Below are positions 36,516-38,997 of a stretch of DNA of 42,075 nt, piece after piece (the first letter of the stretch is position 1; each line of letters starts with the position of its first letter). The stretch is from an uncultured Candidatus Poseidoniales archaeon (lineage in GTDB: Archaea; Thermoplasmatota; Poseidoniia; Poseidoniales; Poseidoniaceae). The stretch covers positions 1,537,880 through 1,579,954 of the forward strand of contig CM001443.1 in assembly GCA_000246735.1 (NCBI GenBank), given 5' to 3'. A model generated the notes under the pieces. That model saw nothing but the letters and a program-made list of their open reading frames with translations, made no database searches and had not been told where the DNA came from. Both the position numbers and the translations under genes were made by a program.

Positions 36516-36588
36516 GGGCGTTTAGCTCAGTTGGAAGAGTGCTTGGTTTGCAACCAAGATGTCGTGGGTTCAAATCCCACAACGTCCA
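36516..36588 (+). tRNA. tRNA-Ala (UGC anticodon)
   Basis: It folds into a standard cloverleaf. The acceptor stem GGGCGTT/AACGTCC contains the G3:U70 pair that identifies alanine tRNAs. The D-arm is GCTC..GAGT, the anticodon stem CTTGG/CCAAG encloses TTTGCAA (anticodon TGC), and the T-arm GTGGG-TTCAAAT-CCCAC matches consensus. The discriminator base is A at 36588 and CCA is not encoded. No intron is present. Confidence 0.97.
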
Positions 36589-37297: not shown

Positions 37298-37309
37298 AGA
37301 ATATATTCT
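37298..37309 (+). promoter_or_regulatory. palindromic TATA element of the permease-EF-hand gene
   Basis: AGAATATATTCT is a perfect 12-bp palindrome containing a TATA-like core, 57-68 nt before the ATG at 37366. It could be both promoter and operator. GGGGGA at 37355-37360 is the ribosome-binding site. Confidence 0.45.
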
Positions 37310-37365: not shown

Positions 37366-38997
37366 ATGGTCAAATCCAACATTGAATCTTTGGTCGAAAC
37401 CATCACAGAGGAGGTCAAGTCGAAATTCACGAGAACCATCGGGTTGGTTGGCGTGATCATCATCTCACTCTCAGCAATGCTTCCGGGGATCTTTGTAACC
37501 CCAACTTTTGCCGCAGAAATCATGGGACCTGGAATCTGGCTTGCCTATTTGGTCGCAGCATCAGTGGTGCTTCCTGGCGCTCTATCCAAGTCCGAGTTAT
37601 CTTCTGGCATGCCGTCAAGCGGAGGATCTTATGTGTACTTAGAACGAACCTATGGACCCCTTATCGGAACCATCAGTGGGCTGGGATTGTGGGCCTCGTT
37701 CCTCCTCAAGTCTGCCTTTTCACTCATTGGTTTTTCTGCTTACTTCATCGTGGTCACGACGTACTTCGATATCGAGATGGAATTGAGGACGCTCTCGATG
37801 AGCGCACTGGTTTTGATTGTTGTAGTCAACCTCCTTGGCGTTTCGAAAGTCAAGGCTGTTCAAGCACCGATTGTGTTCATGACCGTAGCCCTTCTGACTC
37901 TGATATGCATTGCTTCTTTCTTCAGTGATGGTTTCGATGCCAGCATCCCCATCGATGGAGCCATGAATGCGAATGGGTGGAAACTTGCGGAGGCAGCAGC
38001 CTTTGTGTTCGTCGCCTACGCTGGCGTTACGAAGGTTGCTGCAATCGGAGGTGAAGTGAAAAACCCAGAGAAAAATTTGCCAGCCGGAATCTTGCTTTCC
38101 TTGCTCATTGCAACGGTGATTTACTCAGCCATTGCCTTTTTGATGATGGCAGCCATCCCAGGTGACCAGTGGTGGATTGGCGGAGATGGCAAGGTTGTAG
38201 AGAACCCAATTTGGGTCTTCGCTGAAACAGTTGCAGGAACGAAGTTTGGCGTCGTAGCCGCCGCACTTTCAGTTCTGACGATGATTTCGATGGCACTTGC
38301 AGGTATTCTCGCTTCCTCGAGATTCCTGTTCGCAATGGCTCGTGACAACCTCCTCCCACAAGCCCTCGAAGAAGTGAATGTCAAATTCGAGACCCCTCAT
38401 TGGCCGATCATCTTAACCGGTGCCGCCATGGCTCTGGCCATATTCTACGTCCCACTCGAGGACGTCGTTAAGCTCGCTTCGGGCTTTAAAATCATGATAT
38501 TCATGATGATCAACTCATGCGTGATCATCCTTCGCCAAACCAGTAAGGAGCATGATTGGAACCCATCCTACACCAGTCCAATGTATCCCTATATCCAGGT
38601 ATGGGGTATCCTAGCTGGCGCAGTTCTCATTGCCTTTATTGGAAACAAGGCGTTTATTGGCGCTGCTGCTGCTGTAGCAGCAGGTGCTGCCACATACTAC
38701 CTCTACGGACGAAAGCACGCAGTCCTGCAAACGACTCCAATTGCATCATTCCGTAAGCAGTTCAAATCGCCTTCATCTACCGAGCATCAACGCCGAGTAA
38801 CTGCGTTCCATGCTGCAGACATGGGAGGCAAGAACCATCTGACAATTCGAGAATTCCAAAGTGCACTACAAGCGCTTGGATTCAATTACTCTTCTGATGA
38901 ATCACGCGTGATCTTCCATTCCGCTGATGCAGATGGAAATGGCGTGATTGACATCGATGAATTCTTCGATTCCGTTGAAATCACGAGTGACGAATAA
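37366..38997 (+). CDS. amino acid permease (APC superfamily) fused to C-terminal EF-hand pair
   Basis: 543 aa from the ATG at 37366, with GGGGGA just upstream; the frame extends to a TTG/GTG-region start at 37318 without a ribosome site. Residues 30-440 form about 12 helices of an APC amino-acid transporter: GLVGVIIISLSAMLPGIFV, SSGMPSSGGSYVYLERTYGP and FVFVAYAGVTKVAAIGGEVK (TM6-7 with ExxNPxKN-like PEKNLP). After a short linker comes an EF-hand pair. The first is degenerate (loop Asp485, DMGGKNHLTIRE); the second is canonical (521-532, DADGNGVIDIDE). The second loop should bind Ca2+ in the cytoplasm, so uptake may be calcium-gated. I know of no described archaeal APC-EF-hand protein. The gene starts after the decayed region near tRNA-Ala. 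Confidence 0.9.
   Translation: MVKSNIESLVETITEEVKSKFTRTIGLVGVIIISLSAMLPGIFVTPTFAAEIMGPGIWLAYLVAASVVLPGALSKSELSSGMPSSGGSYVYLERTYGPLIGTISGLGLWASFLLKSAFSLIGFSAYFIVVTTYFDIEMELRTLSMSALVLIVVVNLLGVSKVKAVQAPIVFMTVALLTLICIASFFSDGFDASIPIDGAMNANGWKLAEAAAFVFVAYAGVTKVAAIGGEVKNPEKNLPAGILLSLLIATVIYSAIAFLMMAAIPGDQWWIGGDGKVVENPIWVFAETVAGTKFGVVAAALSVLTMISMALAGILASSRFLFAMARDNLLPQALEEVNVKFETPHWPIILTGAAMALAIFYVPLEDVVKLASGFKIMIFMMINSCVIILRQTSKEHDWNPSYTSPMYPYIQVWGILAGAVLIAFIGNKAFIGAAAAVAAGAATYYLYGRKHAVLQTTPIASFRKQFKSPSSTEHQRRVTAFHAADMGGKNHLTIREFQSALQALGFNYSSDESRVIFHSADADGNGVIDIDEFFDSVEITSDE

Follow-up and report, generated by a model that had tools for sequence, protein, structure and literature searches.

An order-wide fusion of an APC-type carrier and a calmodulin-like EF-hand pair in Poseidoniales archaea: a candidate calcium-responsive transporter

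An APC carrier that runs in frame into an EF-hand pair

The fusion of an APC carrier to a pair of EF hands is real and is found order-wide in Marine Group II archaea. The gene studied here lies in a stretch of 42,075 nucleotides that was analyzed as a whole (the window), corresponding to positions 1537880 to 1579954 of a single-contig 2.06 Mb genome. We think it somewhat probable that the encoded protein is a Ca2+-responsive APC-type amino-acid carrier in which the cytoplasmic C-terminal tail serves as a self-contained regulatory module. The features on which the following sections draw are, in window coordinates:

37298 to 37309, + strand: AGAATATATTCT, a TATA-like AT box, palindromic by chance, read in the sequence 57 bp 5′ of the start codon
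37366 to 38997, + strand: carrier gene, 543 aa, APC domain with EF-hand tail (open frame, Pfam, full-length homologues at 43 to 90% identity)
37429 to 38709, + strand: 12-TM APC transport domain, residues 22 to 448 (AA_permease_2, match to GkApcT 5oqt, and 5oqt as top Foldseek match of a low-confidence model)
37477 to 37494, + strand: unwound TM1 segment MLPGIF, where the common GSG/GTG substrate motif is one residue shorter (alignment, tree, and mapping to G42/T43/G44 of GkApcT)
38734 to 38766, + strand: TPxx(S/T)FRxxF helix, residues 457 to 467, a candidate transmitter (alignment, listing of 65 homologues, helix in both models)
38800 to 38970, + strand: calmodulin-like EF-hand pair, residues 479 to 535 (EF-hand_7, E of 4e-9; calmodulin, E of ~1e-9; modelled EF topology)
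38818 to 38853, + strand: EF1 loop DMGGKNHLTIRE, degenerate, residues 485 to 496 (position 3 is G in 43/55 tailed members, position 5 is K in 42/55)
38926 to 38961, + strand: EF2 loop DADGNGVIDIDE, a canonical 12-residue Ca2+ loop, residues 521 to 532 (ligands kept in the 55-member alignment)

The frame at 37366 to 38997 is open, and its 543-residue translation consists of a 12-helix APC carrier followed by the EF-hand pair, so that the initial annotation, which described a complete APC transporter continuing into EF hands, was right in both coordinates and architecture. Both parts score above curated Pfam cut-offs (AA_permease_2, E of 3e-37 over residues 26 to 426; EF-hand_7 over residues 479 to 535). 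The membrane domain reaches 129 bits for AA_permease_2 (cut-off of 27) and 108 bits for AA_permease (cut-off of 24.6), which places the carrier in the APC superfamily; the NCBIfam family TIGR00909 (2A0306) was the best of 18 families at 182.9 bits, short of its cut-off of 556.8. The nearest solved structures are GkApcT for the carrier part (5oqt; E of 5.6e-34 over residues 22 to 455) and calmodulin for the tail. A full-length AlphaFold model (mean pLDDT of 59), for which the top Foldseek match was also 5oqt, confirms the APC fold only, and at this confidence contacts between tail and carrier are unreadable from it. The loop charges (12 K+R inside versus 2 outside) fit the positive-inside rule when the tail is placed in the cytosol, and this pattern, together with homology to GkApcT, supports a cytoplasmic location of the C-terminal EF tail.

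A palindromic TATA element had also been proposed upstream of the gene. The AT box exists, and a TATA-like element at this site is plausible, but its symmetry is unexceptional: perfect palindromes of 12 bp or longer number 7 in the window, compared with ~10 expected by chance (42075/4096), and a relative at 90% identity (L050) keeps the AT box and not the palindrome. On these grounds, a palindromic TATA as a regulatory signal is ruled out. Further upstream, between purA and the carrier gene, lies a tRNA-Ala (TGC) at window positions 36516 to 36588, overlapped by a spurious minus-strand open reading frame starting MWDLNPRHLGCKPSTLPTEL.

Distribution, gain, and loss of the EF-hand tail

A homologue was found in 54 of 60 relatives, with most matches reaching residue 507 or further, and the same genome encodes a second APC carrier, 63% identical, that has an EF tail too. 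A search through 84,980 species genomes, which reaches close relatives only, returned 38 loci. Thirty-seven of these are from MAGs of Poseidoniales, the nearest named relatives being Candidatus Poseidonia and Poseidoniaceae MAGs, which places the source of the window in Marine Group II (Thermoplasmatota, Poseidoniia, Poseidoniales); the single match from outside the order is a distant permease without EF hands. A search for the architecture in other genomes, which the initial annotation had proposed, thus succeeded: the EF tail is present in 55 and absent in 10 of 65 distinct Poseidoniales homologues, with both families represented, in a set from which near-duplicates were removed and in which best hits are mixed with chosen cases, so that these counts are not population frequencies. 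No paper naming an APC-EF-hand fusion was found in a literature search.

A quick-search tree of the membrane domain only, which has several long branches, requires 8 switches between tail types across its 70 sequences, and well-supported branches force 7 changes involving the tail-less state. The simplest account would be that Poseidoniales gained the EF tail once, at the base of the order or close to it, and then lost it repeatedly; since the tail-less and long-branched L102 diverges at a basal fork that the tree leaves unresolved, the gain may fall just after L102. The losses are clean, in that tail-less members end shortly after TM12. No EF remnants were seen downstream of them in three frames over up to ~400 nt, which rules out hidden remnants 3′ of these carriers. 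In two tail-less members, L074 and L103, different and mutually similar C termini replace the EF pair (compare INIQDSVVIDSEISKSSEEE and ISINDSVVTDSVITNSSEEA).

Outside Poseidoniales, among the matches listed in the phylum, none aligns past residue 480, and no homologue was found in five genomes of another family of the same class. Five non-Poseidoniales homologues were translated fully. Pfam identifies a terminal PTS_EIIA_2 domain in L095 and L096 and tandem Usp domains at the end of L098; the tail of L097 resembles those of L095 and L096 by eye (no domain scan), and the tail of L094 has no Pfam match. That the equivalent site can hold PTS-EIIA-like or tandem Usp domains suggests that it serves as a slot into which cytoplasmic regulatory domains are placed.

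One canonical and one degenerate EF hand

EF-hand_7 scores above its cut-off and the modelled topology identify the tail as a paired helix-loop-helix EF module, with pLDDT of ~83 to 90 over the EF part when the tail is modelled alone. Foldseek searches with the tail returned calmodulin-like matches at a probability of 1.00, with a best E of 1.4e-3 and none below an E of 0.001; the regulatory domain of an ATP-Mg/Pi carrier (4zcu) is among these structural matches and is not significant alone. When the loops were compared with the canonical pattern (ligands at positions 1, 3, 5, and 12 and G at position 6), loop 2 alone conformed, and loop 1 departed from it at positions 3, 5, and 6. The second loop had been singled out as an ideal 12-residue Ca2+ loop, and its ligands are indeed kept in nearly all of the 55 tailed members: D at position 1 and G at position 6 are invariant (55/55 each), position 5 is always N, D, or S (55/55), position 3 is D or N in 53/55, position 9 is D in 51/55, and position 12 is E in 53/55. 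Position 2 varies freely, while the ligand positions are nearly invariant. The EF1 loop retains D1, L8, and E12 but not the customary ligands of positions 3 and 5, and has the signature DxGxKNHLT. Given the G at position 3 and the K at position 5, normal Ca2+ binding by EF1 is not expected, and EF2 looks to be the sole Ca2+-competent loop of the pair. The EF-hand pair recognized initially therefore stands as a fold and not as two competent sites. Since EF1 loops are more canonical in a few members of the other family (L049, L110, L113, and L107), EF1 likely degenerated within Poseidoniaceae.

The EF module is under purifying selection, with dN/dS well below neutrality (0.00 to 0.26 for pairs with measurable dS). 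Values for the carrier part are usually lower (0.03 to 0.13), and comparison of the window carrier with L050 (76% identity in the EF module versus 93% in the membrane part) also indicates that the EF module evolves faster.

The TPxx(S/T)FRxxF helix lies between TM12 and the EF pair. T457 is nearly invariant and P458 invariant in the alignment of homologues, and the motif is retained by some tail-less members (L071, L072, L105, L102, and L104). Although the helix is conserved, its amphipathicity is no higher than that of its own shuffles (P = 0.27), and we therefore set aside an amphipathic transmitter helix and keep the motif as a candidate transmitter only. That candidacy rests on analogy, since Ca2+ moves a linker helix in ATP-Mg/Pi carriers (PMC6283063).

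Divergence of the transport domain from GkApcT

GkApcT, of the CAT/SLC7 branch, shares with the window carrier the APC fold over residues 22 to 455, cytoplasmic termini, and an arginine (R319 equivalent to R327 between the two proteins). It differs in having no EF tail and in TM1, where G42 of GkApcT is deleted and T43 is replaced by P40 in the window carrier. The shortened motif, PG instead of GSG, is common to the subclade of the window carrier (32 sequences, support of 100), while the other APC carrier encoded by this genome retains GSG; the shortening suggests different substrate handling. Two lysines, K115 and K223, are invariant in 65/65 Poseidoniales sequences and present in 4/5 others. 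In GkApcT, E115 and D237 are proton-coupling residues and K191 is the TM5 lysine (PMC5803215). The equivalents in the window carrier are S111, T222, and T173, and with these residues replaced, GkApcT-like proton coupling is not supported and proton symport of that kind is ruled out.

EF hands and the calcium setting in Poseidoniales

EF-hand_7 matches occur in 24/24 Poseidoniales of a phylum sample (5 to 17 per genome in family f1 and 1 to 5 in f2) and in 11/92 of its non-Poseidoniales genomes, mostly as a single weak match. The 60 relatives have 1 to 18 matches per genome, and members of the genus have 5 to 18. The initial view that EF hands are rare in archaea thus fits the phylum sample outside Poseidoniales and fails within the order. 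The accessible part of a family survey reports calcium-binding domains in Poseidoniales-specific modules and does not name the APC-EF-hand fusion (PMC9258230). In bacteria, EF-hands are fused to many domains (PMC7016017).

In the same genome, EF hands also occur on A/V-ATPase subunit I, on GyrA, and on a ZnuA-like protein, among others. Subunit I of the A/V-type ATPase (L011:1971-4385; C1 ~672970-675385) has an EF-hand pair at residues 341 to 399, inserted within its N-terminal part. In most genomes of the genus, a 170-aa query from this protein matched from end to end, and f2 matches covered only the post-insert flank; this insertion is possibly more surprising than the permease fusion. A 660-aa polytopic membrane protein (L013:203-2182; C1 ~333202-335181) has a C-terminal EF pair genus-wide, ~60% identical to that of subunit I, and no Pfam or PDB match was found for its membrane part. 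DNA gyrase subunit A (L017:239-3037; C1 ~728238-731036) has one EF-type loop (DTDNDGVVTREE) at its C terminus; two close relatives match to the end of the query, and matches in more distant ones mostly stop earlier. The ZnuA-like metal-binding protein (L014:2-2503, − strand) has long His/Asp-rich stretches and several EF loops, and a zinc-ribbon protein (L009:2226-4067) combines hydrophobic stretches with two EF pairs; a relative of this zinc-ribbon protein (L133 in G025) has seven EF-type loops in the reading frame that was translated. The genome also encodes two CaCA-family exchangers, which make a low resting cytosolic Ca2+ plausible.

Proposed calcium regulation and alternative explanations

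If the carrier is Ca2+ responsive, then in the plasma membrane of Poseidoniaceae EF2 would bind Ca2+ as its cytosolic concentration rises and the EF pair would rearrange, with EF1 probably acting as the structural partner of EF2. The TPxx(S/T)FRxxF helix might relay this change to the inward gate and so alter carrier activity. Calcium-gated uptake, as first proposed, would be one form of this reading, since Ca2+ might activate or inhibit the carrier, which might import, export, or exchange its substrate. With EF1 degenerate in most of the proteins, a monomer would be expected to hold no more than one Ca2+ and to show less cooperativity, and the several tail losses imply that the tail is dispensable for transport. 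We count in favor of this reading the presence of the fusion in 55/65 homologues, the retained EF2 ligands, purifying selection, the predicted cytoplasmic tail, the other cytosolic domains found at the same site (L095, L096, and L098), the two CaCA-family exchangers, and, by analogy, the precedent of the ATP-Mg/Pi carriers with their EF domain and linker helix (PMC6283063). Against it we count the degenerate EF1, the repeated tail losses, the faster evolution of the EF module than of the membrane part, and a linker not amphipathic above shuffles.

EF2 could instead be permanently loaded with Ca2+ or Mg2+ and stabilize or traffic the carrier, with no dynamic sensing. A single canonical loop with a degenerate partner fits such a structural metal module, as does the D at EF2 position 9 in 51/55 members, a residue often linked to Ca2+/Mg2+ structural sites, and this lineage places EF hands on many unrelated proteins. 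However, the tail occupies a site where relatives carry signalling-type domains, and a stabilizer would be expected to show fewer losses than the tree does; we regard this explanation as rather unlikely. Somewhat less likely again is a docking or scaffold tail, in which the EF pair would bind some other protein, possibly one of the further EF proteins found in this lineage, and Ca2+ would be incidental. Conservation of the non-Ca2+ signature DxGxKNHLT in the EF1 loop suggests a role other than metal binding, yet the Ca2+ ligands of EF2 are kept in members down to ~43% overall identity. Finally, a misassembly or misread frame fusing two genes near 38760, which the initial annotation had allowed for should no other genome have the fusion, found no support and is refuted by the identical junction in dozens of independent assemblies and in the second paralogue of the same genome.

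Building on a Ca2+-responsive carrier, one could imagine a cytoplasmic Ca2+ signalling layer in Marine Group II, in which EF modules in the carrier, in A-type ATPase subunit I, and in the further polytopic membrane protein jointly adjust nutrient transport and energy conversion, an independent counterpart to the Ca2+-regulated carriers of mitochondria. We offer this as a speculative and improbable extension. Poseidoniales are abundant in the surface ocean. Since they are also implicated in protein degradation (PMC9258230), the way in which their amino-acid transport is controlled matters for the turnover of organic matter in the sea.

Comparison with known systems

Amino acid permease-Usp fusions have been described in Archaea (PMC12159084). 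Like the window carrier, archaeal APC carriers with Usp or PTS-EIIA-like ends (L095, L096, and L098) have a cytosolic regulatory-type domain after TM12, but that domain is not an EF pair and has no Ca2+ site. The EF pair itself matches residues ~13 to 70 of the calmodulin N-lobe; it differs in that one of its two loops is degenerate and in being covalently joined to its presumed target.

The best-described solute carriers under direct Ca2+ control through built-in EF hands are mitochondrial. In ATP-Mg/Pi carriers, the EF domain and a linker helix gate transport through a Ca2+-dependent locking-pin mechanism (PMC6283063). These carriers and the aspartate/glutamate carriers (AGC; citrin and aralar) resemble the window carrier in combining a solute carrier and an EF-hand regulatory domain in a single chain. 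They differ in having the SLC25 fold instead of an APC carrier domain, in carrying at least four EF hands at the N terminus, where the window carrier has two at the C terminus, and in being an independent fusion. Without the SLC25 fold, the window carrier lies outside the ATP-Mg/Pi and AGC class, yet it may work alike. A conserved archaeal case would represent independent evolution of built-in Ca2+ control and would make cytosolic Ca2+ as an archaeal signal testable on one expressible protein, with tail-less relatives as natural controls.
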